Source: Candidatus Parcubacteria bacterium
GTDB taxonomy: Bacteria > Patescibacteriota > Minisyncoccia > Minisyncoccales > JAGLUP01
Direction: 5' to 3'
DNA: 64,000 nucleotides
NCBI GenBank assembly: GCA_023134715.1
Contig: JAGLUP010000002.1
Location: forward strand, 62,001 to 126,000
The translations under genes and the position numbers were made by a program. Positions 1,056 through 45,882 of this stretch are shown here, piece after piece. Position 1 is the stretch's first letter. Each line of letters starts with the position of its first letter. The notes under the pieces were generated by a model, which saw nothing but the letters and a program-made list of their open reading frames with translations, was not told the DNA's origin and did not search any database.

Positions 1056-1640
1056 TCATTCTCTTCTTTGGAGAGCGCTTTTAAGGGTTTCCTTATCAGC
1101 ATATTCTAATTCCGCGCCAGTCGGCAAACCGCGGGCGAGGTGAGTAATTTTCCTGCCTAACGGCTTTAAAGCGCGCTCTAAATAAAGTATTGTCGCTTCA
1201 CCTTCTGTGGTCGGATTTAAAGCTAAAATTATTTCTTTGAAATTAGCTTTTTTTATTCTCTGAATCAACTCCTTTATTCTTAATTTTTCAATATCTTGCT
1301 TTTTAAGGGTTGAAACCGTGCCTCCTAAAACAAAATAAAAACCTTTATAAGTTTTTGTTTTTTCAATTGAGATTAAATCAGTTTCTTTTTCTACTATGCA
1401 AAGCAGGGTCTTATCTCTTCTCGGGTCTAAACAAATCTCACAAAATTTCTGGTCTCCCTCATAAGAATTAAAGCAAAACGTACAAATTTTTATCGCTTTT
1501 TTTAATTCTAAAATTGAATTAGTTAAATTCTCAACTTTCTCTACGGGAAGATGGATTAAATAAAAAACAAAGCGAGCTGCTGTGCGCGGTCCAATCGTGG
1601 GAAATTTACTAAATTCATCAATAAGTTTCTGCTTTTTCAT
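1056..1640 (-). CDS. recR: Recombination mediator RecR
   Basis: RecR works with RecO/RecF to load RecA at gaps and breaks. The protein shows the family order: an N-terminal helix-hairpin-helix (motif PTIGPRTAAR), a C4 zinc finger (Cys 53, 56, 67, 70), a Toprim domain, and the conserved C-terminal motif NPTTEGEATILYLERAL. I chose the ATG at 1640 (194 aa) because family members place the hairpin motif about 15 residues in. A TTG at 1679 would add 13 residues. Either start overlaps the 3' end of dnaB upstream, so the two are probably translationally coupled. Confidence 0.93.
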   Translation of the reverse strand: MKKQKLIDEFSKFPTIGPRTAARFVFYLIHLPVEKVENLTNSILELKKAIKICTFCFNSYEGDQKFCEICLDPRRDKTLLCIVEKETDLISIEKTKTYKGFYFVLGGTVSTLKKQDIEKLRIKELIQRIKKANFKEIILALNPTTEGEATILYLERALKPLGRKITHLARGLPTGAELEYADKETLKSALQRRE

Positions 1641-2994
1641 ATTTTTCAATAGTTCGGAAACAAGCTCTTTGTTCGTCAAAATATAATTTTATCATTCCTA
1701 TGGGTCCATTCCTATGCTTGGCAATAAGAATTTCAGCAACGTTTTTCTCGGCATCGTCTTTATATCTATCCGGCCGATGAATAAATAAAACCACATCCGC
1801 GTCCTGTTCCAATGCGCCGGATTCGCGAAGATCAGACAAGCGAGGAATTGGAGGAGTGCGCTGTTCCACTGCCCGAGAAAGCTGGGAAAGAGCTAAAACA
1901 GGTATATTAAGCTCGCGAGCCAGACCCTTCAAAGACCTTGAGATTTCAGTCATCTGCTGGACTGTGCTTAAATGCGGACTCCGAGATTCCATCAATTGCA
2001 AGTAATCAACAACAATCATGCCCAGCCCATGGCTGGCTTGAAGCCGCCTTGCCATTGCCCTCATTTGTAAAATACCAGAAGTAGCCGCATCATCAATAAA
2101 AATCGGCACTTCAGATAAAACACCGATTGCCTGGTTGATTCTGCTAAAATCATTATTTTCTCCTTCGCTGGAGAGACGGCCAGTTCTTAATCGCCATAAA
2201 TCAATATTAGCGTGAGAAGCAATCAATCTGTCCACTATTTGGTCTTTTGCCATCTCTAAGCTAAAAATTCCTACCGGCAATTTTTCCTTAGTGGCAATAT
2301 GGCGGGCAATATCAAGAGATAAAGAGGATTTTCCAAAACTTGGCCTTGAAGCAAGAATTATAAGGTCTGACTTTTGTAATCCGGCTAAAACATTATCAAG
2401 GTCTTTAAATCCAGTTGAAAGCCCTCTTAAATTCTGTCCGTGCTTTGAAAGCTCATCTATTCTTTCAAAGGCCTCTTCTAATGTGCTTTTTATCGGCACA
2501 AAGGCCTGGCTAAGAGATTTTTGAGCTATGCTGAAAACTTTTTTTTCCGCTTCGTCTAAAAGCAAATCAACATCTTCTGTTTCTTTATAGCCCATAGAGC
2601 CAATATCCTGGCCGACTTCAATTAAACTCCGCAAAATTCTCTTTCTTTGAACAATCTTAGCGTAATTTGAAACATTAGAAGCAGTGGGAACAGAGTTTAT
2701 TAAATCAGTTAAATAGCTTCTTCCCCCGATTTGTTCTAATTGATTTTTTTCTCTAAGTATATTAGTAACCGATACCAAATCAATTGGCTCACTTTTTTCA
2801 AAAAGCTCAAGTATTGTCTGAAAAATTTTCTGATGAATGTTTTTATAAAAATCGCGAACAGTTAAAAAATCAGCTACTTTAATAATAGCGTCTTTGTCTA
2901 ACATCAAAGACCCCAGCAAACATTGTTCTGCTTCAATATTCTGAGGCGGCAATCTATCAGGCAATTCAAGATTTTTTGGAGAATTATCGTTCAT
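1618..2994 (-). CDS. dnaB: Replicative DNA helicase DnaB
   Basis: This is the hexameric 5'-3' helicase of the replication fork. The N-terminal DnaB domain starts with the typical LPPQNIEAEQCLLGSLMLD region. The RecA-like core carries Walker A ASRPSFGKSS (about 215-224), Walker B ending in VVDYLQLM, and the C-terminal LRESGALEQDADVV motif. The length (458 aa) is normal and no intein is present. The start is ATG at 2994. It is the first gene of a leftward unit with recR. Confidence 0.96.
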   Translation of the reverse strand: MNDNSPKNLELPDRLPPQNIEAEQCLLGSLMLDKDAIIKVADFLTVRDFYKNIHQKIFQTILELFEKSEPIDLVSVTNILREKNQLEQIGGRSYLTDLINSVPTASNVSNYAKIVQRKRILRSLIEVGQDIGSMGYKETEDVDLLLDEAEKKVFSIAQKSLSQAFVPIKSTLEEAFERIDELSKHGQNLRGLSTGFKDLDNVLAGLQKSDLIILASRPSFGKSSLSLDIARHIATKEKLPVGIFSLEMAKDQIVDRLIASHANIDLWRLRTGRLSSEGENNDFSRINQAIGVLSEVPIFIDDAATSGILQMRAMARRLQASHGLGMIVVDYLQLMESRSPHLSTVQQMTEISRSLKGLARELNIPVLALSQLSRAVEQRTPPIPRLSDLRESGALEQDADVVLFIHRPDRYKDDAEKNVAEILIAKHRNGPIGMIKLYFDEQRACFRTIEKYEKAETY

Positions 2995-3066: not shown

Positions 3067-3128
3067 TAAATTAGTTCAATGAGAAGAGAATGCTCTTTAA
3101 GAACTGAAAATTAAAAGAGGTGATAAAA

Positions 3129-4400
3129 ATGATAGCTGAAGCTATAATGACTAAAAAATCTATAAATGAAAAACCTGCATGTCCGGACTGCGGAAGTAGG
3201 CAAACAATAACTGACTATAAACATGGTGAAATAATTTGTAAGTGTGGTTTGGTTTTAAATGATACATTATTTAATTTCGGACCCGAGACAAGAGCATACG
3301 ACCAGGAAAAAATGGATAAAGTAGCGAGAACTGGCAGTCCTTTAAAATTTGCCAAACAAAATTTAGGATTGACGACAGAAATAGATCATTATGATAGAGA
3401 TATTTTGGGAAGATCAATTCCAACTGAAAGAAAAGCTCAACTCTATCGTCTAAGGAAATGGCAAAGAAGAGCAAGAATGGGAACATCTGTTGACAGAAAT
3501 CTTTCTATAGCATTGCCAGAGCTTGATAGAATGTGCGGACATTTAAACATTCCCAATAATATCAAGGAAGAATGCGCTCAGCTTTATAGAAAATGCGTAA
3601 AAGAAAGAATAGTCAGAGGAAGATCAATAGAAAGCGTAGTCGCGGCAGTAATATATTTAATATCAAGACAGCGTAAGCTTCCAAAAATCCTTGATGAGTT
3701 GGAAAGTGTGTCTGGCGTCAAGAAAAAAGATATTGGAAGGAGTTATAGAATAATTTGCAGAAGAATGAAGATAAGAATGCCAGTGACTACGGCGGCAGAT
3801 TATATATCGAGATTAGCAAGCAAAGCAGGGGTCTCGGGAGAAACACAAGCAAAGGCGATAGAAATACTTGAGAAAGCAAGAAAAGACGGAACGATAAGCG
3901 GAAGAGTGCCTATAAGCATGGCGGCGGCAGGAATATATTTAGCCGCAGAAATGACGGGAGACGAGAATGCCAAACAAATTAAAGGAATTTCAGGTGTTTC
4001 TGAGATGGGAATAAAAAATAGATATAACGAACTAAAAAGATTTATTGACAGAGACAATGGAATAGAAGTATTGCTTGAAGAAGAGATAGAAACATTAGAT
4101 GATATGCTGGGGAAGGTAGAAAAGAAAAAGATTCTGCTAAAATTTGCCGATGAGTTAGAGTTGTCAGACGAAACAAAAAAAGAAGCAGTTGAGATTCTGG
4201 AAAAAGTTATGGAAAATGGCTTTAAGCTGGATCCAAGAAAAAATATCAATGGATACATAGAAGCGGCAATTTATCTTAGCGCCATGGACAATGAAAAAAT
4301 TTCTCTATGGAAGATAGAAAAGGTTACCAAAACTTCAAGCACAATAATCTGGGATAGGAAAGAAAAAATAAAAAAAGCGTTAATAGGAATAGAGCAATAA
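3129..4400 (+). CDS. TFIIB/TFB-like transcription factor, copy 1
   Basis: This protein strongly resembles archaeal TFB, which bridges TBP-bound promoters and RNA polymerase. It has an N-terminal zinc ribbon (Cys 18, 21, 37, 39), a B-reader/linker with GPETRAYD and GLTTEID, and two cyclin-like repeats (about 120-215 and 222-305). These contain near-verbatim TFB motifs such as RNLSIALPELDRM, RGRSIESV, KKDIGRSYR and the recognition-helix region GVSEMGIKNRYNEL. Archaeal TFBs end there at about 300-320 aa. This one runs to 423 aa and appears to add a third cyclin-like repeat (about 332-418). The second zinc knuckle is CKC, one residue short of the usual CxxC. The start is ATG at 3129 behind AGAGGTG. 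A GTG inside the ribosome site is rejected. Confidence 0.88.
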   Translation: MIAEAIMTKKSINEKPACPDCGSRQTITDYKHGEIICKCGLVLNDTLFNFGPETRAYDQEKMDKVARTGSPLKFAKQNLGLTTEIDHYDRDILGRSIPTERKAQLYRLRKWQRRARMGTSVDRNLSIALPELDRMCGHLNIPNNIKEECAQLYRKCVKERIVRGRSIESVVAAVIYLISRQRKLPKILDELESVSGVKKKDIGRSYRIICRRMKIRMPVTTAADYISRLASKAGVSGETQAKAIEILEKARKDGTISGRVPISMAAAGIYLAAEMTGDENAKQIKGISGVSEMGIKNRYNELKRFIDRDNGIEVLLEEEIETLDDMLGKVEKKKILLKFADELELSDETKKEAVEILEKVMENGFKLDPRKNINGYIEAAIYLSAMDNEKISLWKIEKVTKTSSTIIWDRKEKIKKALIGIEQ

Positions 4401-4416
4401 ATTGCTCTTTTTTTTT
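4391..4416 (+). terminator. Rho-independent terminator
   Basis: The arms agagcaa and ttgctct with a short loop are followed by nine T residues. It overlaps the last codons of the first TFB-like gene. Confidence 0.75.
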
Positions 4417-4446
4417 GATTTTAAATCACTCTATCTAAAATTTACC

Positions 4447-4475
4447 TTGCCAAACAAATGAGTCTGTGATAGTAT
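4447..4475 (+). promoter_or_regulatory. Possible sigma70 promoter of the second TFB-like gene
   Basis: TTGCCA (4447-4452), a 17-nt spacer and TAGTAT (4470-4475). A TTGACA at about 4488 followed by AT-rich sequence is an alternative. Confidence 0.35.
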
Positions 4476-4544
4476 TATTACAGTAATTTGACAATTATAT
4501 AATTAATAATTACTGATGAATGAAAAATAAAAGAGGTGATAATA

Positions 4545-5801
4545 ATGAATAAATGTAAAGGTTGCGGAGGTTCAGAAAAAATCACAGACTATAAACATGG
4601 TGAAATACTTTGCAAAAAGTGTGGTTTGGTTTTGAATGATGCGCTATTTGATACTGGACCCGAATGGAGAGCATTTGACAAAGAACAATCAGATAAACGA
4701 GCGAGAACAGGCGGCCCTTTAAAATTTGCCAAACTAAATTTAGGTTTAACAACAGAGATAGACAAATACGACAGAGACATTTTAGGAAAACCGGTTCCCA
4801 CTATAAGAAAAGCAAAACTCTACAGATTGAGATACTGGCAAAGAAGGTCAAGAATGGGAACATCTGTTGACAGGAATCTTTCTATAGCATTGCCTGAATT
4901 AGATAGGATGTGCGCGTATCTCAACATTCCCAACAATATTAAGGAGGAATGCGCCCAGCTTTACAGAAAATGCGTAAACAAGAAAATAATCAAGGGAAGG
5001 TCAATAGAAAGCGTAATTGCCGCAACAATATATCTGATTTCCCGAAATCATAAAATGCCAAAAACTCTTGAAGAGCTTGAAAATGTGGCAGGTGTAAAGA
5101 AGAGGGATATTGGAAAGAGTTATAGAACAATCTGCAGAAGATTGGGCATAAAAATGCCAGTGATTACAGCCGTGGATTATGTGCCAAGATTAGCAAGTGA
5201 AGCAGGAATTTCCGGGGAAACAACAGCCATAGCAATGAAAATGCTTGAAGACACAAGAGAATCTGGAGCGATAGCAGGCAAGGTGCCTATAAGCATGGCA
5301 GCTGCAGGCGTATATTTAGCCGCAAGAATAACAGGAGATAAAAAGTGTCAAAAGATTAAAAGTATTGCAGGTATTTCTGAATCTGCGATAAAAAGCAGAT
5401 ACGTCGAGCTTGAAAAAATTATTAATGGAGAAGTATTGCTTGAAGATATTGACACGGGGATTACAGAAAAAAGAAAACCTGAAGAAGAGCCGACATTAGA
5501 TGATATGTTATGGAAGATAGAAAAGAAAAAGATTCTGCTAAAATTTGCCGATGAGCTAAGATTATCAGACAAAACAAAAAAAGAAGCAGTTGAGATTCTG
5601 GGAAAAGTTATGGAAAATGACTTTAAGCTGGATCCAAGGGAAAATATCAATGGATATTTAGGAGCGGCAATTTATCTGGCAGACAAAAACAATGATAGAA
5701 AATGCAAGCAAAAGGGAATTGCGCTCATTGTCGGCGTATCAGTTCCGACAATTTCATACAAAGGAAAAATAATAGAGGGGAAACTCTCTTCTTTTTTTTG
5801 A
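4545..5801 (+). CDS. TFIIB/TFB-like transcription factor, copy 2
   Basis: This is a tandem paralogue of the preceding gene (418 aa). Its zinc ribbon is canonical (Cys 4, 7, 23, 26 as CxxC/CxxC) and the B-reader is the textbook GPEWRAFD followed by ARTGGPLKFAK. Two cyclin repeats follow, with RNLSIALPELDRM, KGRSIESVIAATIY, KKRDIGKSYR and ISESAIKSRYVELEK, then a third cyclin-like segment starting at KKKILLKFADEL. The third segment is much closer to that of copy 1 at the nucleotide level than the N-terminal half is. The start is ATG at 4545 behind AGAGGTG. No TBP homologue is visible in the window. Whether these act with bacterial RNA polymerase, or as DNA-binding proteins only, cannot be read from the sequence. 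Confidence 0.88.
   Translation: MNKCKGCGGSEKITDYKHGEILCKKCGLVLNDALFDTGPEWRAFDKEQSDKRARTGGPLKFAKLNLGLTTEIDKYDRDILGKPVPTIRKAKLYRLRYWQRRSRMGTSVDRNLSIALPELDRMCAYLNIPNNIKEECAQLYRKCVNKKIIKGRSIESVIAATIYLISRNHKMPKTLEELENVAGVKKRDIGKSYRTICRRLGIKMPVITAVDYVPRLASEAGISGETTAIAMKMLEDTRESGAIAGKVPISMAAAGVYLAARITGDKKCQKIKSIAGISESAIKSRYVELEKIINGEVLLEDIDTGITEKRKPEEEPTLDDMLWKIEKKKILLKFADELRLSDKTKKEAVEILGKVMENDFKLDPRENINGYLGAAIYLADKNNDRKCKQKGIALIVGVSVPTISYKGKIIEGKLSSFF
5771..5797 (+). terminator. Terminator overlapping end of second TFB-like gene
   Basis: agaggggaaactct forms a short 4-bp stem, with an interrupted T-run after it. It is weak but placed exactly at the end of the gene. Confidence 0.45.
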
Positions 5802-5854: not shown

Positions 5855-6454
5855 ATGAATATAAAAAAACAGGATATAATTGCGGCTTTTATAATCGGCG
5901 AAGCAGACGCTTTGCTTATGATTCTAATTGCTAAAAATATTGGCTGGGACTTTGATTTAATTAAATTCACGCCAATTATTTTGCCAGTTTTAGCTGTTTT
6001 AGGAATTATTTTCGCTAATTACTTAGGAAAAAAGATTTTAGCTATTTTCCAAGCAGCTAAATTTGCTTTAACCGGAACATTGAATACTTTTATTGATTTA
6101 GGCGTGTTAAACCTTTTAATGTTAGTTTTTGGTGTAAGCTCTGGAATGCTTTATTCGGTGTTTAAAGGAATGTCTTTTATCGCAGCCACAATTAATAGCT
6201 ATCTTTGGAATAAATTCTGGACCTTTGAAAAGAAAGAAACAGCAGTTTCCACAAAAGAATCTTCCCAATTTTTTGCTGTTGCCGGCATAGGCCTTATAAT
6301 AAATGTTGCTGTTGCTTCTTTTGTGGTAAATATTATAGGCCCTCAATTTGGAATCTTCCCAGAACTCTGGGCAAACATTGGCGGAGTTATTGCTACGCTT
6401 ACTGCTATGTTCTGGAATTTTGTTGGCTATAAATTCATTGTGTTTAAAAAATAA
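5855..6454 (+). CDS. GtrA-like membrane protein
   Basis: GtrA-family proteins are small four-helix membrane proteins, often thought to move lipid-linked sugars during cell-surface glycosylation. The C-terminal 130 residues carry the family landmarks: KFALTGTLNTFIDLGVLN, then NSYLWNKFWTF, and a final NFVGYKFIVF. An extra N-terminal pair of hydrophobic segments (about 8-25 and 38-57) precedes the domain. Two bases separate its stop from the dnaX start, so the two genes are probably cotranscribed. Confidence 0.8.
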   Translation: MNIKKQDIIAAFIIGEADALLMILIAKNIGWDFDLIKFTPIILPVLAVLGIIFANYLGKKILAIFQAAKFALTGTLNTFIDLGVLNLLMLVFGVSSGMLYSVFKGMSFIAATINSYLWNKFWTFEKKETAVSTKESSQFFAVAGIGLIINVAVASFVVNIIGPQFGIFPELWANIGGVIATLTAMFWNFVGYKFIVFKK

Positions 6455-6456
6455 TT

Positions 6457-7575
6457 ATGTCATTAGCTTTATATAGAAAATACAGGCCAAAAACCTTTGC
6501 CGAAATTATCGGGCAGGAGCATATTGTTAAAACTTTAACTAACGCGCTCTCTTCAGAAATGATTTCCCACGCTTATTTATTTACAGGCCCTCGCGGCTGC
6601 GGCAAAACCACAATAGCTCGTTTATTGGCTAAAGCGGCAAATTGTGAAACCCGAAAACCAAATGAATTTGAGCCCTGCAATAAATGCTCTTCCTGTATTG
6701 AAATTAATGAAAGCAGGTCAATTGACTTAATTGAAATTGACGCGGCTTCTCACAGGGGAATTGACGATATAAGAGAAATAAGACAGGGGATTAAGTTTGC
6801 TCCCACAAAATCAAAATACAAAATTTTTATTATTGACGAATGCCATCAGTTAAGCAAAGACGCGGCAAACGCTTTACTGAAAACATTGGAAGAGCCGCCA
6901 GCTCACGCTATTTTTATTTTAGCCACAACAGAAATTCAAAAAATGATTGCGACAATTCTTTCCAGATGCCAGCGATTTGATTTCTGGAACCTGACCATGC
7001 CGCAAATCATCCAACGATTAGAATTTCTTTCTGAAAAAGAAAAAATAAAAATTGAAAAGCCGGCTTTAGAGCTTATTGCTTTGCAGGCAAGGGGATCTAT
7101 CAGAGACGCTGAAAGCTTGCTTGACCAGGTTATTAGTTTTTCCAGCGCTTTAGACCAGAAAGCGGAAATAAAAACACAAGAAATTAAAGATTTATTGGGA
7201 ATTGTTGATTTAAGTTCAGTTTCGCAATTCGTTGATTTTCTTGTTGAAAAAAACATTTCTAAAACAATCAACTATTTGCAGGAAATTCTGGAAAAAGGCA
7301 AAGACCCGCAGGAATTTACTAAAACCTTGATTAGTTATTTAAGGCAGGGACTGCTTTTAAAAATCAGCCCTGATATGCAAAATCATCTAAGTATTGGCTT
7401 AACAAAAGAAGAACTACAAAAACTTCAAAATCAAGCAAATGGTTTTTCAGAGCAGGAATTGCAAAAACTTTTACAACTTTTTTTAAAAGCGGAAAACCAA
7501 ATAAAATATTCTTCAATCCCTCAACTGCCAATAGAATTGGCAATCGTTGAGGCGATTGGCTTGGAGAAAGAATAG
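6457..7575 (+). CDS. dnaX: DNA polymerase III gamma/tau subunit
   Basis: This is the clamp-loader ATPase of the replisome. It has Walker A GPRGCGKTTIARLLAKA, the zinc module with three closely spaced Cys (CNKCSSC after an earlier Cys), Walker B IDECHQL, and the sensor/arginine-finger motif SRCQRFDF. At 372 aa it covers domains I-III only. There is no tau-type extension, so only a gamma-like protein is expected unless a frameshift extends it. Confidence 0.93.
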   Translation: MSLALYRKYRPKTFAEIIGQEHIVKTLTNALSSEMISHAYLFTGPRGCGKTTIARLLAKAANCETRKPNEFEPCNKCSSCIEINESRSIDLIEIDAASHRGIDDIREIRQGIKFAPTKSKYKIFIIDECHQLSKDAANALLKTLEEPPAHAIFILATTEIQKMIATILSRCQRFDFWNLTMPQIIQRLEFLSEKEKIKIEKPALELIALQARGSIRDAESLLDQVISFSSALDQKAEIKTQEIKDLLGIVDLSSVSQFVDFLVEKNISKTINYLQEILEKGKDPQEFTKTLISYLRQGLLLKISPDMQNHLSIGLTKEELQKLQNQANGFSEQELQKLLQLFLKAENQIKYSSIPQLPIELAIVEAIGLEKE

Positions 7576-7631: not shown

Positions 7632-8315
7632 ATGGCTAAACTCAAAGAAAAAGAAAAAGCGATAAAACTTAGAAAAAAAGGGCGTTCCTATTCTGAAATT
7701 TTAAAACAAATTCCGGTAGCTAAATCTACCTTATCTTTATGGCTAAGAAGTGTTGGATTGGCTCAACCTCAAAAGCAAAGACTTACTGAAAAAAGAAAAC
7801 GGGCATTAGAAAGAGGAGTGAAAGTAATCCGAGAAAAAAGGATCCTGTTGGTAAAAAAAATTAAGGAAAACGCTAAACAAGAAGTCAATAAAATTACTAA
7901 AAGAGAGTTATGGCTTATTGGGATTGCTTTATATTGGGCAGAGGGCGCTAAACAAAAAGAAACTAATGTTTCAGAAGGGGTATCTTTCGGTAATTCTGAC
8001 CCAAAAATGATAACACTTTTCCTCAATTGGATTTATACGACTTGCGATCTCAGCCCTAATAATCTTAGTATAAGATTATATATTCACAAAACAGCCAATG
8101 CTGAAAAAGCAATAAAATTTTGGTCATCTGCTACCAAGATACCAATTTATAAATTTAAAAAAACTGTTTTTAAAAAGCATAAACCGAGAACGAATCGACG
8201 AATTAATAAAAATTATCAAGGTTTAGTAAAAATCACTATTAAGAAAAGCACAAATTTTAATAGAAAAATAACAGGCTGGATTGAAGGAATTTGTGAAAAT
8301 TGCGAGATCGTCTAA
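7632..8315 (+). CDS. HTH protein of a patescibacterial 'LYWAEG' family, function unknown
   Basis: The N-terminus (about 12-45) reads as a helix-turn-helix of the resolvase/transposase type (RSYSEILKQIPVAKSTLSLW). The middle carries a WLIGIALYWAEGAK motif followed by SFGNSDPKMI, a combination I recall from many uncharacterised patescibacterial proteins. It could be a LAGLIDADG-like or other DNA-acting protein, but I see no proof of nuclease activity. The last 15 nt overlap the start of tRNA-Gln, which is unusual and places the gene at the edge of the island. Confidence 0.6.
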   Translation: MAKLKEKEKAIKLRKKGRSYSEILKQIPVAKSTLSLWLRSVGLAQPQKQRLTEKRKRALERGVKVIREKRILLVKKIKENAKQEVNKITKRELWLIGIALYWAEGAKQKETNVSEGVSFGNSDPKMITLFLNWIYTTCDLSPNNLSIRLYIHKTANAEKAIKFWSSATKIPIYKFKKTVFKKHKPRTNRRINKNYQGLVKITIKKSTNFNRKITGWIEGICENCEIV

Positions 8316-8371
8316 TGGTAGGACACCACCCTTTGAAGGTGGTTATCTAGGTTCGAGTCCTAGTCTCGCAG
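8301..8371 (+). tRNA. tRNA-Gln (UUG)
   Basis: This is a complete cloverleaf: acceptor tgcgaga pairing with tctcgca (U1-A72, typical of bacterial tRNA-Gln), D stem gtct/ggac, anticodon stem ccacc/ggtgg with loop ctttgaa (anticodon TTG), four-base variable loop and T stem ctagg/cctag. The discriminator is G and CCA is not encoded. The gene overlaps the 3' end of the preceding CDS and, on the other strand, the 3' end of the recombinase gene. Confidence 0.95.
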
Positions 8372-9862
8372 CATTAAAGGATAATTCAATTTTTTAGGCC
8401 TGTCCTCGCCCTTTTGCTTTTTTCCGGCCCGGGCTTGATTATTGAATTTTAAGAGTATTTTCCATGCTTTGAGGGGAGTGAACAATATCTCCCGCTCTCG
8501 CAAAAGAGGGTTCGAGCCAATCTTTTTTAGGAAATTTTTCTTTTCTGAAAAATTTCCTCGCAAAGCAATAATTTGGGCTTGTTTTGCCTCTAAAATGAAT
8601 TTTTTGGCGGGTTTGAGCCAATGATTATCCTTTTGCTCAAAATTAGTTAATTTCTGTTCATTCTCAATTTTCTGATTGAGAATTTTTTCTTTTTTAGCGA
8701 GGTATTCATCTTTAGAAATTATACCTTCAAGATGAGCGTCTAAAAGTTTGTCTAATCTATTCTGACAATTCTCAATTTCATTTTTTAAATTTTGAGCAAA
8801 AGAGAATTTGGCTTGGGCATTTTCTTTTTCATCTGTATCAAGATTTTCAATCATTTCATCCGCCCAAGCCGAATTTAAAGAAACTTTTTGAATGATGTTT
8901 GAAATCTGCTCGGCCAAAAGTTCCTCGCGGATATATTTTTGAGAACAGGGGACACGCTTTTTTGTGCATCGGTAGTAGTTATGTCCTTTCTGCGTCTCAG
9001 AAGTAATAGAACAGCCGCATTCAGCGCATTTTAGCAATCCGCGAAAAGCGTATTCCTTTTGGCCTCGTTTGGTCTTGCGGGCTTTGGTTTTCATCACTTC
9101 TTGGCATTTGTCAAAAAGTTTCTTTGAAATCATTGGCTTATGGCTTCCTTGATAAAGCTCGTTATTGAAGATAAACGCGCCATAATAAAATGGCCTAGAT
9201 AAAATAGCTTGAATATTACTGACGCTTAATATTTTGTTGTTTCGGCTCAACAAGCCCAAATCAGTTATTTTATTTCTTAAATCTTTCAGAGAATAATTTT
9301 CTGTTGAATAAAGTTCAAAAAGTTTTTTGACGAGGTGAAATCTTTTAGGGTCTTTAACTATTTTATGATTGACCTTATCGTTTATGTAACCAGTAGGGGC
9401 AACGCCGGGTAATTCGCCTCGTCTTACTTTTTGACGCAAACCTCTTTTTACATTCTCTGAAAGATTGTCAATATAGTATTTTGATTGCCCAAAAGCAATG
9501 TTCAGCATAAACTTGCCCTGCGGAGTAGGATTAAACCAGAAAGTAGGGAATTTTAGCTTTTTAATTTTTTCAGTATCAACCAAATAGATTATTCGTCCGC
9601 CGTCTATTGAATTTCTCGCTAATCTGTCAGGGTGCCAAGCTAAAATTCCCGACGCTTTATTTTGTTCAATAAGCGAGAGCATTTCATTAAAAACAGGCCT
9701 GCCAGGATCTTTGGCTGTTTTGCATTCAATGAATGTCTGGATAATATCTAAACGCTCTCGCTTTGCAAATTCTTTCAGTTCCGTTATTTGGGCTTCAATG
9801 GAAAGAATTTGCCTGTCAGGTTCATCTGTTGATTTTCTCGCGTAGAGAAAGAATTTGTTCAT
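8360..9862 (-). CDS. Large serine recombinase
   Basis: This is a site-specific recombinase of the large serine family (500 aa). The N-terminal resolvase domain begins LYARKSTDE with the nucleophile Ser11, and the WHPDRLARN motif follows. After it come the recombinase domain, a zinc ribbon (CAECGCSI ... YRC ... CSQ) and a long coiled coil (about 345-420). Such enzymes integrate, excise or invert DNA at short att sites. The last residues (LMLRD, stop at 8360) are read from the antisense strand of tRNA-Gln, so the reading frame crosses the putative integration point. The 3' 155 bp lie inside an inverted repeat. Confidence 0.93.
   Translation of the reverse strand: MNKFFLYARKSTDEPDRQILSIEAQITELKEFAKRERLDIIQTFIECKTAKDPGRPVFNEMLSLIEQNKASGILAWHPDRLARNSIDGGRIIYLVDTEKIKKLKFPTFWFNPTPQGKFMLNIAFGQSKYYIDNLSENVKRGLRQKVRRGELPGVAPTGYINDKVNHKIVKDPKRFHLVKKLFELYSTENYSLKDLRNKITDLGLLSRNNKILSVSNIQAILSRPFYYGAFIFNNELYQGSHKPMISKKLFDKCQEVMKTKARKTKRGQKEYAFRGLLKCAECGCSITSETQKGHNYYRCTKKRVPCSQKYIREELLAEQISNIIQKVSLNSAWADEMIENLDTDEKENAQAKFSFAQNLKNEIENCQNRLDKLLDAHLEGIISKDEYLAKKEKILNQKIENEQKLTNFEQKDNHWLKPAKKFILEAKQAQIIALRGNFSEKKNFLKKIGSNPLLREREILFTPLKAWKILLKFNNQARAGKKQKGEDRPKKLNYPLMLRD
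8369..8384 (+). other. Putative attachment core at tRNA-Gln 3' end (attL-like)
   Basis: cagcattaaaggataa overlaps the last three bases of tRNA-Gln. It is found again in direct orientation at 24503-24518 and inverted at 10068-10083. Confidence 0.45.
8369..8528. repeat. Left arm of ~160-bp inverted repeat around the recombinase
   Basis: This arm starts at the last bases of tRNA-Gln with cagcattaaaggataa. It matches the reverse complement of 9916-10083 almost base for base, except for a short insertion and a few substitutions near the inner end. It contains the 3' end of the recombinase gene. Confidence 0.9.
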
Positions 9863-9915: not shown

Positions 9916-10083
9916 AAAAAAGATTGGCTCAAACCCTCTTTTGCGAGAGTGGGGGATATTGTTCACCTTTTCTTTCCCCTCAAAGCATGGAAAATACTCT
10001 TAAAATTCAATAATCAAGCCCGGGCCGGAAAAAAGCAAAAGGGCGAGGACAGGCCTAAAAAATTGAATTATCCTTTAATGCTG
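9916..10083. repeat. Right arm of inverted repeat (second copy of recombinase 3' end)
   Basis: This is the inverted copy of 8369-8528. Read on the plus strand it encodes the same LKAWKILLKFNNQARAGKK segment as the recombinase C-terminus, but without the rest of the gene, so it is a duplicated end and not a functional CDS. It ends in the inverted core ttatcctttaatgctg (10068-10083). Confidence 0.9.
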
Positions 10084-10380
10084 GGATTTTTGAATGAAAT
10101 CCGAACTTTTTTTCGCGAAAATCCGGACGCGGATTTTTGAATCCCGACCCAACGTTTCCGCCCGCCTCCGCTTCGCTCCGGCGGGAAACAAAACAGAAAA
10201 ATTTTCCACATTTCATTTTCTCGCCAGCAATTTTTTAATTTTTAATTTAATGAAAAGAAAATTTTTTCTGTTTTGTGTTTCTACCCCAAACCCTGCTTCG
10301 CAGGGCAGGCGGGCAAAAATTCCTTCCTCCAAATATCTTTTCTTTTTGCCCGCCCGCTTTTTTGATATGGGGAAAAAATA
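10068..10380 (+). repeat. ~300-bp repeat unit, copy 1
   Basis: This unit runs from the core (10068-10083) through a conserved block with segments such as aaatccgaactttttttcgcg, a cccgcctccgcttcgctccggcggg stem, tttctcgccagcaatttttt, and ccctgcttcgcagggcaggcgggc. The unit recurs in opposite orientation at 17578-17876 and in part at 24250-24518. It fills the gap between the recombinase and the first xre gene, and I see no credible gene in it. Confidence 0.85.
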
Positions 10381-10390
10381 AGTCCTATAT

Positions 10391-10443
10391 GCTAACTATA
10401 GTATGTAGCAATAAAAATATCAAGTGGGTATACTATAGTTAGC
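10391..10443 (+). promoter_or_regulatory. Operator-like inverted repeat upstream of xre
   Basis: gctaactatagtat (10391-10404) and atactatagttagc (10430-10443) are 14-bp perfect inverted repeats, 25 nt apart. They end 2 nt before the xre ATG and contain TATAGT/TATACT elements. Controller proteins of restriction systems autoregulate from such paired boxes. Confidence 0.65.
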
Positions 10444-10445
10444 TT

Positions 10446-10664
10446 ATGAAAAAGAAGATTTTACTAAAATTCGGCGAAAAAGTTAGAGATGAAAGAATAA
10501 GACAAAATCTTTCACAGGAGAAGCTTGCTGAAAAAGCAGGTGTTCATCGTACTTATATTGGCATGATTGAAAGAGCTGAAAAAAATATAACATTAGAAAA
10601 TATAGAAAAAGTCGCAAAGGCTCTTGGTTTAAAATTGTCAGATTTTTTTAGTGACTTTCAATAA
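10446..10664 (+). CDS. Xre-family controller (C-protein-like) regulator
   Basis: This is a 72-aa single-domain helix-turn-helix protein with motifs SQEKLAEKAGVHRTYIGMIERA and NITLENIEKVAKALGL, which match restriction-modification controller proteins closely. It lies directly behind a symmetric operator and 4 nt before the putative restriction endonuclease. I infer that it times expression of the endonuclease after the methyltransferase, as known C proteins do. Confidence 0.8.
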   Translation: MKKKILLKFGEKVRDERIRQNLSQEKLAEKAGVHRTYIGMIERAEKNITLENIEKVAKALGLKLSDFFSDFQ

Positions 10665-10668
10665 AATT

Positions 10669-11499
10669 ATGCCAAACCAGTTCAATAAATTTTTAATAGA
10701 ATTCTCCAAAAGCTTTAAAGAAAAGGATCCTGTAATCCATAGCGTTATGGCTAATATTTTTTCTATGAGAATTATCGGGAATAAAACACATGGCGACCTT
10801 GCTGAAATTGCCTTAACAGAATATATCAACGAATTCGTTGGTGATTATTCAGCAAAGCATACAGGAAAAGAAACATTTCGAGCAAAGGTGAATGAAGAAG
10901 ATATAAGAGTGACAAATAAAAACACAAACGAGGAAATGCCGATAAGCATAAAGACTTATGGATTTGGTCCTCTACAATTGTCTACAAATAAGGACACTTC
11001 TATGTTTAGATATTTAACAGAGATTGTTGGAAAAAAACAAGTCATTGATTCCAATAAAATTCGCAAGATACTTAGCAATCCATGCTTTATTGATTTTAAT
11101 GATGTCAATGTTCTGCCTTTAATTTACAATGAAACAGAAATGACTTTCAAGGTGATCATATTTGATGTCAAAAAAGCGTATAAATCGGTTAGAAAAATAA
11201 AATTTTTCCCACCTAGAAAATTTGGGGAGAATAGGGAAACACATCCTATTTATAAATTCTTTGATAAAGATGACAACTATATTTTTGAAGTAAGATATGG
11301 TGATACGAAAGCTAATGCGTTGCAACGGGGAATGTGGACTCACACTGAAAATGCCAGACCATTTTTCAAAAAGATTCTGAAAGGTTCATATCAAATTAAC
11401 GAACCTTTACTTAAATTAATTTCAAAGACACTTGTTTGTCGGAAGAATAAACATGAAAAGATTCTAGAAAAATTTTTTCCTGCACATGGTATAGAATAG
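10669..11499 (+). CDS. Probable type II restriction endonuclease
   Basis: This 276-aa protein is flanked by a C-protein-like gene and an adenine methyltransferase, the classic place for the endonuclease. It has a possible PD-(D/E)xK core: an acidic helix HGDLAEIALTEYI (Glu46), then Asp78 and the strand PISIKTYG with Lys95. GFGPLQLSTNK follows, a pattern I associate with restriction enzymes. The specificity is not readable. The start is ATG at 10669; a GTG at 10651 would overlap xre. Confidence 0.65.
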   Translation: MPNQFNKFLIEFSKSFKEKDPVIHSVMANIFSMRIIGNKTHGDLAEIALTEYINEFVGDYSAKHTGKETFRAKVNEEDIRVTNKNTNEEMPISIKTYGFGPLQLSTNKDTSMFRYLTEIVGKKQVIDSNKIRKILSNPCFIDFNDVNVLPLIYNETEMTFKVIIFDVKKAYKSVRKIKFFPPRKFGENRETHPIYKFFDKDDNYIFEVRYGDTKANALQRGMWTHTENARPFFKKILKGSYQINEPLLKLISKTLVCRKNKHEKILEKFFPAHGIE

Positions 11500-24920: not shown

Positions 24921-26759
24921 CTACCAAGCCAAGAAATTCCACCAAGGTTTTTTAACAGCCAAAACCTTGCCAGTTTCAGCATCAATCTTAGATTCAACTT
25001 TCATAGAAACAGGTATCAAGAAAAACAATTTTGCTTTTTTTGTCCCTTGGATTAAATAAATCGGTTTTTTTGCTTCTTCTTTGATCTCAATTTCTTTAAT
25101 TGCTTTTTGGTCGGGAGTGCCCGAAACTGCCACTGCATCTGCTGGGGAAATATTAATTGGCTTTTTGCCATCAGAGGTTTTCATTAACAATTTAGATTCC
25201 TCGATGACTAATTCTTGAGAACATTTCACTTGAACTGAAATATTAGGTGTTTCTAATATCACTCTCCCTCCTCCAGTATGAAGAACAACATCTTGGGATT
25301 GAAATTCACCAGCTCTGAAAAACTCAATCTTACCAGTTGAGGTATCGTAGGCAATCCCTCCTTTTTTGTCGTCTTCTTCCTCGGACTTAGCGCTACAGAT
25401 GACTTGGCCAGGATATGAAGCAGTTACTTCACATTCAGCGCCTTCGGGACATTCATAATAACTGCAGGGATTTTTCTTAGCGCATCTAAGTCCCAAACCG
25501 GGAAATCTGTAACAGTTCAAATCCATGTTTTTAGGGCAAGGATTTAACGCATCACAAGTAATATTAGTTATATCAACGCCCCACTTACATTCGCCATCAT
25601 ATTTTTTAACTGCATCAGCTTCCATTAAAAAACAATTATTCATGTAAGTAATTCCATCACAGCCACAAACAGGTTTATAATAATCTGGACAAGGGCTTTG
25701 CCTTACTTCGCAAGTTCCACTGATACCCTCGCAACATCCTTTAGAAGCAATTGCGTCCTCACACTTTTCATGCAGAAAACAATCATATTCAACATAATCT
25801 GTTGATCCACATTCATTATCAGATAAACACTCCTTTCTGCAAACTATCTGCATTGGAAATGTGAGCTGAACCAAACCTTCAAATCCCTCTGGGCAAGGAT
25901 AGTAACTAAATGGGTTATCTGCCGCACACTTTGTACCAATTCCTGGAAATTCATAACAGCCTCCAATAAATGCGCACGTTGATTTTCCATAATCACTGAT
26001 ATCACAGCTTACATTTGATATTTCTTTAATACACGGTCCATCATAATTCTTGAAAACTCGGTTTCTCTTTCTAAGGCAGTCATTATCATAGGTCACACTA
26101 TCGCATCCACAAACAGGTGAAATAATAGAAGAACAGATTGTCGGAATCTCTGTACATGTTCCAGCTTCAAGATCGCAAGGAAAATAATCACAGAATTCGC
26201 TATCTGCGCAATCATTGTCTAAACGGCAGTTCCCCGCACATACTACTTCTTTTGGAATCGTGAAAAAACCTTCTTTGACAATACAGGCAGAATTTTCAGA
26301 TATTATCGAACAATTAAAGTAATTGCAGGGATCTGATTCAGCGCATCTCGTGCCAATATTCGGAAACTTAATACATTCCAAGTCGCCAGGACAACTTGCT
26401 TGAGGGTCACAATAATGGCTAGATATTTGTTCAATACATTCTCCTCTGTAGTTCCCTGAAATTCCTGAAGCTTGTCTGTGGCAATCACTTTGGTAAACTT
26501 GTCCATCGCATCCACATACAGGCCCGACAATTTCACATTGACTAGAATCAGGCTTTCTTACGCATATACCCTCATCTTCATTACAATTTTGGAATTCACA
26601 GAATTCTGTTATATCACAATCAGAATCTAAATAACATTGGGTTGATGCTTTAGTAAAGAAAATGCCAATAAAAGAAAAAAGCACTAAAAGAAAAACTAAT
26701 AGTCCTAAAAGAAAGATATTTTTTGTTTTTAGCACAATGGCTAAATTTTTTATATTCAT
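24921..26759 (-). CDS. Membrane-anchored Kazal-repeat cysteine-rich surface protein
   Basis: This is a 612-aa protein with an N-terminal transmembrane anchor (about 15-36). It has at least three Kazal-type protease-inhibitor domains (about 75-108, 212-243 and 361-391), each with VCGCDG/S, a Tyr and a final Y(R/D)GxC. Other Cys-rich segments lie between them. The C-terminal 120 residues form a beta-rich domain that ends in VKKPWWNFLAW, a tail like that of the protein at 57.2-58.1 kb. It is probably exposed on the cell surface and may block proteases of a host or neighbour. Confidence 0.75.
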   Translation of the reverse strand: MNIKNLAIVLKTKNIFLLGLLVFLLVLFSFIGIFFTKASTQCYLDSDCDITEFCEFQNCNEDEGICVRKPDSSQCEIVGPVCGCDGQVYQSDCHRQASGISGNYRGECIEQISSHYCDPQASCPGDLECIKFPNIGTRCAESDPCNYFNCSIISENSACIVKEGFFTIPKEVVCAGNCRLDNDCADSEFCDYFPCDLEAGTCTEIPTICSSIISPVCGCDSVTYDNDCLRKRNRVFKNYDGPCIKEISNVSCDISDYGKSTCAFIGGCYEFPGIGTKCAADNPFSYYPCPEGFEGLVQLTFPMQIVCRKECLSDNECGSTDYVEYDCFLHEKCEDAIASKGCCEGISGTCEVRQSPCPDYYKPVCGCDGITYMNNCFLMEADAVKKYDGECKWGVDITNITCDALNPCPKNMDLNCYRFPGLGLRCAKKNPCSYYECPEGAECEVTASYPGQVICSAKSEEEDDKKGGIAYDTSTGKIEFFRAGEFQSQDVVLHTGGGRVILETPNISVQVKCSQELVIEESKLLMKTSDGKKPINISPADAVAVSGTPDQKAIKEIEIKEEAKKPIYLIQGTKKAKLFFLIPVSMKVESKIDAETGKVLAVKKPWWNFLAW

Positions 26760-42515: not shown

Positions 42516-43585
42516 ATTACATCGGCTCAAAATTATCGTTATTGGAATTTTTAGAAAATTCAATTGATAAAGTAGTTGATAAAGACTGCCGTGTTTTTTG
42601 TGATTTGTTTGCGGGAACTGGAATTGTTGGAAGTTATTTTAAGAAAAAGGGCTATAAAATAATAGCAAATGATATTCAATATTATAGTTATGTTTTAAAT
42701 AGACATTATATTGGCAACCATAAAGAATTAACTTTTTCTAAATTATCAAAAGAAATTTCAAAATTGAAAAAAATTAAAACAAAAGATCGGAAAGATTTTG
42801 TTTGCGGCTATTTGTCAAATTTGAAAGGTAAAAAAGGATTTGTCTATAAAAATTATTGTCTTGGTGGAACTAAAAATAAGAAAATACAAAGGCAATATTT
42901 CTTAGACGCAAACGGAATGAGATGCGATGCGATAAGGCAAAAAATTGAAGAATGGAAAAAAGAAAAATTGATAAATAATAATGAATATTATTTTTTACTG
43001 GCAAGTTTAATTAAATCAATTGATAAATACGCGAATACCGCTTCTGTCTATGGCGCTTTTTTAAAAAAATTAAAAAAGTCCGCGCAGAAAAATTTAATCT
43101 TACAGCCAGCTGAATTAACTATTAATGATCAAGAACATAAAGTTTATAATAAAGATATAAATATTTTAACCAAAAAAATAAAAGGCGATATTCTATATTT
43201 AGATCCGCCTTATAATCATCGCCAATATGCAACGAATTATCATGTATTAGAAACAATTGCCAAATATGACAATCCAAAAATTTATGGAAAAACAGGTTTG
43301 CGAGATTATCAAAATCAGAAATCGCTTTATTGCTCAAGATCGCAAGTGAAAAAAGCTTTTAAGGATTTAGTTTTGAAAGCAAAAACAAAATATATTTTTT
43401 TGAGCTACAATAATGAGGGGTTAATGACTTTGAAAGATATTAAAGCAATAATGAGCTTGCGGGGTAAATATGGTTATTTTACAAAAAAATATAACCGTTT
43501 TAAGGCGGACAAATCGGAGAATAGGAGTTTTAAAGCAAATAAAACTGTTGAATATTTACATTATGTAATTTGTAAAAATATATGA
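42512..43585 (+). CDS. D12-class N6-adenine DNA methyltransferase
   Basis: This 357-aa enzyme starts MNYIGSKLSLLEFL and has motif I FCDLFAGTGIVGSYFKKKG, motif IV LYLDPPYNHRQYATNYHVLE and a late FLSYNNEG segment. It is the middle gene of a coupled trio, with 4-nt overlaps on both sides. Marking self DNA so that the flanking AIPR and DGQHR/nuclease proteins spare it is the likely role (inference). Confidence 0.87.
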   Translation: MNYIGSKLSLLEFLENSIDKVVDKDCRVFCDLFAGTGIVGSYFKKKGYKIIANDIQYYSYVLNRHYIGNHKELTFSKLSKEISKLKKIKTKDRKDFVCGYLSNLKGKKGFVYKNYCLGGTKNKKIQRQYFLDANGMRCDAIRQKIEEWKKEKLINNNEYYFLLASLIKSIDKYANTASVYGAFLKKLKKSAQKNLILQPAELTINDQEHKVYNKDINILTKKIKGDILYLDPPYNHRQYATNYHVLETIAKYDNPKIYGKTGLRDYQNQKSLYCSRSQVKKAFKDLVLKAKTKYIFLSYNNEGLMTLKDIKAIMSLRGKYGYFTKKYNRFKADKSENRSFKANKTVEYLHYVICKNI

Positions 43586-45882
43586 ATAAATTCAAAACAT
43601 CCGCTATTGAAATATTAAAAAATGTAAAAAAGCCCTTGCACTATAAAGAGATTACTCGACTGGCATTAAAGAGTGGGATCTTAGAGACCGAAGGTGCGAC
43701 ACCTGAAGCGTCAATGAATTCACAGATTGTTATGGATATCAAAAAAAGAGGATTATTTTCTGATTTCGTTAAGATTGCATCCGGTATTTTTGCGCTTAAC
43801 CCTCAGAGAAAGGTTTTAAAACAAAGTCAGAAAATTAAACGGAATGGCGAGGAATCGAATAAGAAAGTGGCCACAAACTTTGAAGAAAAGATAAAACAAT
43901 TTCTTGAGAATTTGGAATTTTGTGATGTTGATGGCGCAAGAGACAATTTCTTGATTAATAATATTCAAGTTGATGTTTGTGGCGGTTGGGATAATGCGTT
44001 GTTAGTTATAGAATGCAAAACAAAACAGAAGTTAGGCAAAAAAAATTTAAGAGCTGCTATAAGTGAATTTCGAGGCAAGATATTGTTATTGCAAAAAGGG
44101 CTTAAAAATCATCCGGTGTATTCTAAATATACATATTTTAAATACATTATTGTTACAAAAAATATAAGAGTTAGGAAATGCGACTATGATTTTGCCAATC
44201 AGTATCCGAGTATATACATCTGGAATGATGATTTTTTAGAATATTACTCAAGTCTATATAATTTTATCAAACCCTATGCGAAATATGATCTTTTGGGCGA
44301 AATGAGAATCAAACCTATCCAGAAGCAACCCATTACTGTTCCTGCGTTTCAAGTTAAACTTGGGAATGTTAATGTTTATAATTTTGTCATGAATCCCAAA
44401 GATCTTCTTGAAGTTGCGTTTGTCGCTCGAAGAGAAGTCGGTATAGAGAGATATTACCAAAGAATCATAGAGAAAGAAAGATTATCTAAAATAGCAAAAT
44501 ATATTGAAGGCGGAGGAACTTTTCCGAACAACATCATCATATCTTTTAAAAAAGATTTAGATGTAAAATTTCACCTAAATAAGGGCCCCGATTATAGCAG
44601 TACAAACTGGCCATATAAAGGGATATCTTATGGGATATTAGAGTTTCCAAAAGATTATAGAAATTGTTGGATTATTGACGGACAGCATAGGCTATATGCT
44701 TTTGTAAACGTAAAAAAAGATTTTTATTTTAACATGCCTATCACTGCGTTTGAACATTTAGACATAAAAGAGCAGTGCAAATTTTTTTTAGACATTAATA
44801 AAAACCAAAAACCTGTTAGCTCTGATTTGCTTTGGGATTTAAACGGTGAAACGATTGCATCAGAGGAAGATGGTATTATATCAAATACAGTCAAGTTTCT
44901 TAACCTTGAAGACAGGGGTCCATTATTCTTTAAAATTTATTATCCTTCTACTGGCGTGAAAAAGAAATTGGATATGATAAAAATTTCTGCTTTGTGTATT
45001 GCTATAAAAAAAAGAAAGCTGGTTGGCACAGTAACATTACAGAATATAAAAAATCCTCTTTATCACAATGACCCAGCCGAGCATATTAAAAAGTTAGGAA
45101 AATGCTTTTCAAAATATTTTAGCGTTTTAAAAAATACTTTTCCAGACAATTGGGAGCTTGCATCAAAGGGATTTATTCTTACAAATGGGGGAATTAGTGT
45201 TATGATCGGTCTTTTTGAAAAAATATTATCTAGAATTATGCAACAAAGATCTCAAGAACCAACAAAAGAAGATTTCGATCTTTATGTGCAACCGCTTAAA
45301 AAACAATTAGAATCAGAAAATCTTGATGATCTAAAAAAATTGAGATTAAGATGTACGAGCGAAGCCGGAAAGACAGATTTGCTGACCGAGTTCATTCTTA
45401 AGATAAGATCTGAAACGGATGATGATCAGTTTGGGGGAGAGATTCAGGTTTATAAATTAAAAGGATCATTTTTATTATTGGAAAAAAGATTGAAAAAATT
45501 AATTAAGAAAAAATTATATGATCCTAAAAATAAAGATTGGTTCAGAAATGCTACTGATGAAGATATGTATGGTCGTGCACTTAAAATAATGAAGAAAAAT
45601 GGAATTGCTGATATGAATAAAATCCATCTTCAGATAGGTTTAGGGGATTGTTTTAGCCTAATGAGAAAAAATAGCAAATTGTTCTATCCTATTTTTATAG
45701 GAGAGAATAAGCCTTTTGCAAACAAGACAATCTTTGAAGGAGCAATTAGTGTCATTAGCACAATGAGGGCTAAATTAGGAGCACATCACACAGGCACAGA
45801 GATAAGGGATAGAGAAGAGGATATATTGATAATTCATTTAGAACAAATCAATGCTTGTTTAGACAAAACATTAAATTTTTAA
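43582..45882 (+). CDS. HARE-HTH / nuclease / DGQHR fusion protein
   Basis: This 766-aa fusion begins with a HARE-type winged helix (about 8-75; KKPLHYKEITRLALKSGIL). A PD-(D/E)xK-like domain follows (about 97-215) with Asp131, Glu144 and Lys146 in VIECKTK. A DGQHR domain (about 250-560; WIIDGQHRLYAF at 363-374) resembles DndB of DNA phosphorothioation systems. The C-terminal 75 residues (STMRAKLGAHHTGTEIRD) could be a HEPN-like helical domain. HARE-HTH domains are thought to read modified DNA. The whole suggests a modification-aware effector of the operon. Confidence 0.75.
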   Translation: MNKFKTSAIEILKNVKKPLHYKEITRLALKSGILETEGATPEASMNSQIVMDIKKRGLFSDFVKIASGIFALNPQRKVLKQSQKIKRNGEESNKKVATNFEEKIKQFLENLEFCDVDGARDNFLINNIQVDVCGGWDNALLVIECKTKQKLGKKNLRAAISEFRGKILLLQKGLKNHPVYSKYTYFKYIIVTKNIRVRKCDYDFANQYPSIYIWNDDFLEYYSSLYNFIKPYAKYDLLGEMRIKPIQKQPITVPAFQVKLGNVNVYNFVMNPKDLLEVAFVARREVGIERYYQRIIEKERLSKIAKYIEGGGTFPNNIIISFKKDLDVKFHLNKGPDYSSTNWPYKGISYGILEFPKDYRNCWIIDGQHRLYAFVNVKKDFYFNMPITAFEHLDIKEQCKFFLDINKNQKPVSSDLLWDLNGETIASEEDGIISNTVKFLNLEDRGPLFFKIYYPSTGVKKKLDMIKISALCIAIKKRKLVGTVTLQNIKNPLYHNDPAEHIKKLGKCFSKYFSVLKNTFPDNWELASKGFILTNGGISVMIGLFEKILSRIMQQRSQEPTKEDFDLYVQPLKKQLESENLDDLKKLRLRCTSEAGKTDLLTEFILKIRSETDDDQFGGEIQVYKLKGSFLLLEKRLKKLIKKKLYDPKNKDWFRNATDEDMYGRALKIMKKNGIADMNKIHLQIGLGDCFSLMRKNSKLFYPIFIGENKPFANKTIFEGAISVISTMRAKLGAHHTGTEIRDREEDILIIHLEQINACLDKTLNF

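Follow-up and report, generated by a model that had tools for sequence, protein, structure and literature searches.

We analyzed a 64,000-nucleotide stretch of contig JAGLUP010000002.1 from a Candidatus Parcubacteria bacterium (hereafter the window), a member of the Candidate Phyla Radiation (CPR), and found that it encodes two neighboring proteins of the TFB/TFIIB family of transcription initiation factors. TFB1 (3129..4400; 423 amino acids) and TFB2 (4545..5801; 418 amino acids) share 67-68% protein identity. Both are without doubt full TFB/TFIIB proteins, with a zinc ribbon, a B-reader, a B-linker and three cyclin repeats. Coordinates refer to the window and its forward strand unless stated otherwise. 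Our preferred reading, to which we give a probability of roughly 45%, is that CPR bacteria took these genes from a lineage of Altiarchaeota, duplicated them and added a third repeat, and that the proteins most likely act on the transcription machinery of an archaeal partner.

The family assignment was assessed with sequence profiles, alignments and structural models. The TFIIB repeat profile (PF00382) matched three stretches in each protein, with whole-protein E-values of 2.6e-41 and 4.4e-40, and all six repeats exceeded the curated Pfam cut-off of 23.6 bits in the genome search. In TFB1 the repeats lie at 3500..3754 (69.4 bits), 3776..4039 (55.8 bits, with a helix-turn-helix of the type that reads the B recognition element, BRE) and 4127..4354 (26.0 bits). 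Their counterparts in TFB2 lie at 4877..5131 (69.3 bits), 5150..5416 (48.7 bits) and 5528..5755 (29.9 bits). The zinc ribbon profile (PF08271) also matched both proteins above its cut-off (E-values of 2e-10 and 7e-15), at 3180..3296 in TFB1 (residues 18-56) and 4551..4676 in TFB2 (residues 3-44); alignment showed that the ribbons end in the B-reader motifs GPETRAYD and GPEWRAFD, respectively. All four metal ligands (Cys 18, 21, 37 and 39) align. Among reader and linker positions nearly invariant across the archaeal set, TFB2 keeps 7 of 7 and 17 of 18 residues, and TFB1 4 of 7 and 18 of 18. Repeats 1 and 2 of the model superpose on the TFB of Pyrococcus woesei (1ais_B) with a Z-score of 23.0 and a deviation of 2.0 Å over 187 residues. 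Pfam detected no sigma-70 region 2 or region 4 domain in either protein. An initial annotation of the window had placed the TFB1 start correctly and recognized archaeal TFB motifs in both proteins; the profile matches and the reader and linker alignments bear this out.

The two proteins depart from the archaeal pattern in the recognition helix of repeat 2, GVSEMGIKNRYN in TFB1 (3993..4028) and GISESAIKSRYV in TFB2 (5370..5405). Where archaeal proteins have EVTIR, the alignment gives EMGIK in TFB1 and ESAIK in TFB2, the latter change being the one seen in the Altiarchaeota source paralogue (PESAIKSRY). Mapped through an alignment with human TFIIB, the positions of V283 and R286, which we take to be BRE contacts of the human protein, are occupied by M and K in TFB1 and by S and K in TFB2. 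These non-canonical states are as in the Altiarchaeota source paralogue, and the canonical residues are present in most other CPR TFBs. They do not exclude membership of the family, as archaeal alternative TFBs also vary at these positions.

The third cyclin-like repeat proposed by the initial annotation is genuine. Beyond the profile scores, the full-length model shows the five-helix cyclin pattern, and its residues 324-421 match cyclin A with a Z-score of 13.7 and 2.1 Å over 96 residues. The sequence of the third repeat by itself matches repeat 2 of the P. woesei TFB (phmmer against 1ais_B, E-value of 2.2e-6). When the repeat was modelled alone, from only two sequences, the helix pattern fitted and the tertiary match was weak, so it is the full-length model that supports the cyclin fold. 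No third repeat was found in the matched TFBs of Altiarchaeota (27 genomes with a match), where the matches stop by residue 343 of the window proteins. Four CPR proteins carry a third repeat, and the tree of repeats requires at least three separate gains: one in the window pair, one in the protein of locus L034 (whose third repeat pairs with its own repeat 2) and one in that of L038 (whose third repeat groups with a stand-alone protein encoded in the same genome). The tree rests on few columns and the finer placing is unsure; in this tree, each gain came from a repeat-2-like unit. The first half of repeat 3 has 89% DNA identity between the two window genes, while the last 39 residues, which include the would-be recognition helix, have only 18% protein identity. 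Repeat 3 thus seems to combine a scaffold that is conserved, or was recently converted, with a DNA-reading end that has diversified.

The bacterium is tiny and probably parasitic. Its genome measures 0.76 Mb, in a draft of 12 contigs that is 90% complete with 0.9% contamination, and the window lies on a contig of 224 kb. We searched this genome for the partners of a TFB, as the initial annotation had proposed, and found neither a TATA-binding protein (TBP) nor the archaeal RNA polymerase subunit Rpo5/RpoH (Rpb5); it encodes three sigma-70 proteins. TBP was also absent from all of the 14 TFB-bearing genomes searched (this one and 13 others). A TBP could be overlooked by chance in one 90% complete genome, but not in 14. 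The absence of TBP and Rpo5/RpoH as partners for a TFB, which works with TBP and an archaeal- or eukaryotic-type RNA polymerase, is a property of the cell and not of the protein family.

One may ask whether archaeal genes have been joined to a bacterial contig by misassembly or contamination, given that the genome is a 12-contig draft. On both sides, the flanking genes (recR and dnaB at 1056..2994 on the reverse strand, gtrA and dnaX at 5855..7575) are bacterial by Pfam and syntenic with relatives. The initial annotation had described dnaB, recR and dnaX as bacterial, and gtrA can be added to that list. The GC content of the TFB genes follows that of the bacterium. Their codon usage correlates with that of the bacterium at r = 0.89 and 0.85, and with that of the Altiarchaeota contigs L054 and L055 at 0.69 and 0.61. 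Many independent genomes carry TFBs, about a dozen of them in synteny and one assembled as a single contig (G065, L039), and the third repeat was not seen in archaea. We therefore rejected a chimeric contig, also raised in the initial annotation, or archaeal contamination as an extremely improbable explanation.

The window pair derives from Altiarchaeota. When 84,980 species genomes were scanned with a window-type query, matches came from Altiarchaeota only, with up to 74% identity. In the phylogeny, the pair is nested within the clade of one Altiarchaeota TFB paralogue (ultrafast bootstrap/SH-aLRT supports of 99/97 and 100/95). This paralogue (L054:9992-10924 and L055:3430-4362) matches the window proteins from the zinc ribbon through repeat 2 and shares the altered recognition helix of TFB2 (ESAIKSRY). 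It differs in having two repeats and 310 amino acids, and its carrier is an archaeon. Four genomes of the Altiarchaeota phylum (L105-L108) also encode TFB-like frames of about 500 amino acids that include a long extra segment and have a different type of recognition helix (STLHSR). With Altiarchaeota, Halobacteria and Pyrococcus sampled as potential donors, a single origin of all CPR TFBs was rejected (approximately unbiased test, p = 5e-5), as was a clade formed by the window pair and the remaining TFBs from its genomic interval (5e-38). The remaining CPR TFBs are compatible with one clade (p = 0.20), so TFBs entered the order at least twice. The TFB of a second CPR genome (L042) likewise groups with Altiarchaeota (97/97), and a test of whether it and the window pair were acquired separately or once gave p = 0.185. 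Because the third repeat is common to both window proteins, their split would have followed its gain inside the bacterium, which makes a duplication there the most likely course.

Within the order, TFIIB repeats occur in 25 of 147 genomes, in line with the suggestion that other CPR genomes carry the same kind of gene. An even draw across the phylum gave 379 Patescibacteria genomes; seven belonged to the same order and were set aside, and none of the other 372 had such repeats. The interval between recR-dnaB and gtrA-dnaX, common to many families, holds full or degenerate TFBs in about a dozen genomes, frequently immediately upstream of gtrA. Many TFB-free relatives retain the recR-dnaB-gtrA-dnaX block. 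The occupants of this interval are not one family, since their sequences point to different archaeal descent. A newcomer may have displaced an earlier TFB there, or the interval may be a hot spot for insertions. A second conserved neighborhood (families f5 and f13; L026, L027, L028, L029, L033 and L051) contains two-repeat TFBs that adjoin a LigT-type 2'-5' RNA ligase gene, and in several of these loci genes of the AmmeMemoRadiSam kind, Memo-like (LigB) and radical SAM, lie nearby. We take a gene near the TFB in the Altiarchaeota loci L056, L060 and L062 to be AMMECR1-like.

Comparison of TFB1 with TFB2 indicates which parts have been kept. The synonymous divergence (dS) is close to 1 across the first four regions and 0.68 in repeat 3. 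The nonsynonymous divergence (dN) is lowest in repeat 1 (0.12), followed by the zinc ribbon (0.15) and the reader and linker (0.17), and is higher in repeats 2 (0.30) and 3 (0.29); dN/dS since the duplication is about 0.12-0.43. The lower dN values imply that the machinery-facing side is kept while the DNA-reading side diverges. Purifying selection is thus strongest on the parts that face the polymerase and TBP. We also scored 17 other CPR TFBs, which are mostly very divergent, relative to canonical archaeal TFB; their best-kept 12 residues are the BRE-recognition helix AGVTEVTIRNRY (76%, compared with a mean of 42%). The zinc ribbon motif CPECG and the reader motif GPEWRAF are also near the top, and the linker is worn.

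Archaeal RNA polymerase, TBP-DNA and the BRE are the contact partners of the conserved parts, and the bacterium's own cell has no TBP and no Rpo5/RpoH. For this reason we propose that the proteins meet their partners elsewhere, in an archaeal cell. A TFB would reach that cell through pili, lysis or contact; its zinc ribbon and B-reader would engage the archaeal RNA polymerase, repeats 1 and 2 would bind the TBP-DNA of the host, and the changed repeat-2 helix together with repeat 3 would select or block particular host promoters. The archaea-parasitizing Patescibacteria known so far all belong to the class Minisyncoccia/Paceibacteria (PMC13293708; PMC10936435), and metagenome-assembled genomes of archaeal parasites within Paceibacterales are reported to highly express genes for pili, ComEC and secretion (PMC10936435). 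A study of gene exchange in Patescibacteria raised the idea that SWIB/MDM2 proteins might act on archaeal or eukaryotic host DNA (PMC12455944). It is quite possible, although we put it forward tentatively, that this CPR lineage uses archaea-derived, repeat-extended initiation factors as effectors that reprogram or shut down the transcription of an archaeal host.

Several observations weigh against action on an archaeal partner. The second zinc knuckle of TFB1 is one residue short (CKC, C37-C39, instead of the CxxC found elsewhere), although the protein probably still binds metal, and its reader reads GPETRAYD where archaea have GPEWRAFD. The mechanism requires export: delivery to the archaeal cell, like the identity of the host and the choice of promoters, is something we infer, and action on host promoters is suggested by conservation. 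The literature examined contained no association between CPR bacteria and Altiarchaeota, and that the order of the window is the order of the known archaeal parasites is presumed. The split of TFB1 and TFB2 may also have occurred in an unsampled archaeon. Finally, several genomes encode cyclin-only proteins with one to three TFIIB-type repeats and no detected zinc ribbon, a number of them in the dnaB-dnaX interval (L040:9059-9760 and 10043-11041, L043:1105-2181, L049:5765-6445, L046:9573-10271, L047:4764-5579 and L052:6268-7014). These may represent a degenerating or repurposed TFB-derived family.

The last point favors a domesticated regulator that works inside the bacterium, binding promoters or operators through its cyclin repeats on BRE-like DNA and perhaps contacting the polymerase or competing with sigma factors. 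Such a role would fit the stable dnaB-dnaX location in about a dozen genomes, the repeated gain of a third DNA-binding repeat, and the genes' own Shine-Dalgarno and terminator-like signals (see below). It leaves unexplained why the zinc ribbon, B-reader and repeat 1 are the most constrained parts where the archaeal polymerase and TBP are absent, and it does not require repeated acquisition from archaea. The degenerate proteins without zinc ribbon in the same interval are the reason why we keep this serious but less probable alternative at about one third. The initial annotation had suggested that the proteins drive a special set of promoters or replace a sigma factor; both ideas presume the bacterium's own polymerase and fare poorly given the missing TBP and Rpo5/RpoH, the three sigma-70 proteins and the conservation of the archaeal-contact parts. 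Its further suggestion of plain DNA-binding proteins stands as a rival, one that suits the zinc-ribbon-less derivatives of related genomes better than the window pair. We regard it as unlikely that the genes are mere passengers from archaeal neighbors, retained by chance with little or no function. The patchy distribution and the short or incomplete copies in some relatives (for instance L051 and L037) would be expected of passengers, but intact frames of 418-440 amino acids persist in genomes of 0.5-0.8 Mb, the dN/dS values are low, the codons are adapted to the bacterium and the recognition helix is conserved across a long divergence.

A mobile element or virus moving between archaea and CPR bacteria with a TFB of its own is a still more improbable source. 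Archaeal viruses and plasmids do carry TFBs, and about 2.5 kb downstream there is a large serine recombinase beside a tRNA gene. However, the TFBs sit outside the presumed island, among recR, dnaB, gtrA and dnaX, in an interval common to many families. A scan of viral contigs with the window-type query returned no TFB relative, and phage records gave only distant TFBs of archaeal viruses and haloviruses; viral origin was rejected. No mobile or viral genes were recognized in the TFB interval of the carriers, in which a subset of open reading frames was annotated. As to the island itself, tRNA-Gln and then, on the opposite strand, the large serine recombinase occupy 8301-9862 of the window, followed by two D12 adenine methyltransferases, a trypsin-like protease and unknown genes. 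The region is probably an integrated island that excludes the TFBs.

Among known systems, the P. woesei TFB (1ais/1d3u) and human TFIIB share the zinc ribbon, reader, linker and two-repeat core with the window proteins, which add a third repeat and a bacterial carrier without TBP. The TFBs of archaeal rod-shaped viruses (of Acidianus, Metallosphaera and Saccharolobus) and of haloarchaeal plasmids likewise belong to carriers that exploit or ride on an archaeon, and the former are a precedent for parasite-encoded TFBs. The rod-shaped-virus proteins align over only some 70% of the query, at 22-25% identity, and the carrier here is a cellular bacterium. An uncultured archaeon has a circular plasmid of 84 kb (L112, LC711081.1 10140-17000) with two divergent TFB genes beside PCNA and Orc/Cdc6. 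TAL effectors are bacterial host-reprogramming proteins that read host promoters. The working mode we propose is alike and there is no sequence relation; in our case the effector would be a general initiation factor, the host would be archaeal and export is proposed. We found no report of a TFB in CPR bacteria in the literature searched, whose coverage did not extend to subscription journals and preprints. What is new is a whole group of TBP-less bacteria carrying TFBs, the three-repeat architecture, one interval shared by occupants that differ in descent, and a conserved promoter-reading helix.

Both TFB genes have the same good Shine-Dalgarno sequence, AGAGGTGA, located by pattern search at 3116..3123 and 4532-4539, and each is followed by a terminator-like (intrinsic) hairpin with a T-run identified by consensus match (4391..4408 and 5774..5792). 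Genome-wide, AGAGGTGA-N5-ATG sites number eight, all on contig C5 and four of them within the window. Besides both TFBs and dapB, the genes that they precede mostly encode small unknown proteins, and no clear regulon emerged from these eight sites. Upstream of recR, a 19-base element, TTTGTGGGTTGGAAAAAAG, is present in two identical copies (522-540 and 921-939), each after a small open reading frame. The first of these frames may encode a membrane segment, and the second encodes a hydrophobic protein of 56 amino acids with the Shine-Dalgarno sequence of the TFBs.

Elsewhere in the window, a 612-amino-acid protein with two Kazal-type protease inhibitor domains (24921-26759) may be a surface or secreted protein, and a 766-amino-acid protein (43582-45882) joins a HARE-HTH domain to a DndB-like domain associated with DNA sulfur modification.

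TFIIB/TFB is a hallmark of archaea and eukaryotes, and intact TFBs under selection in TBP-less bacteria break this rule. The repeated origin of three-repeat TFBs shows a route by which a general factor can arrive at a new promoter specificity. These proteins offer a testable handle on how CPR bacteria act on archaeal partners, as well as a possible sequence tag that links CPR lineages to those partners. If our reading is true, a cellular parasite takes over the basal transcription machinery across domains.

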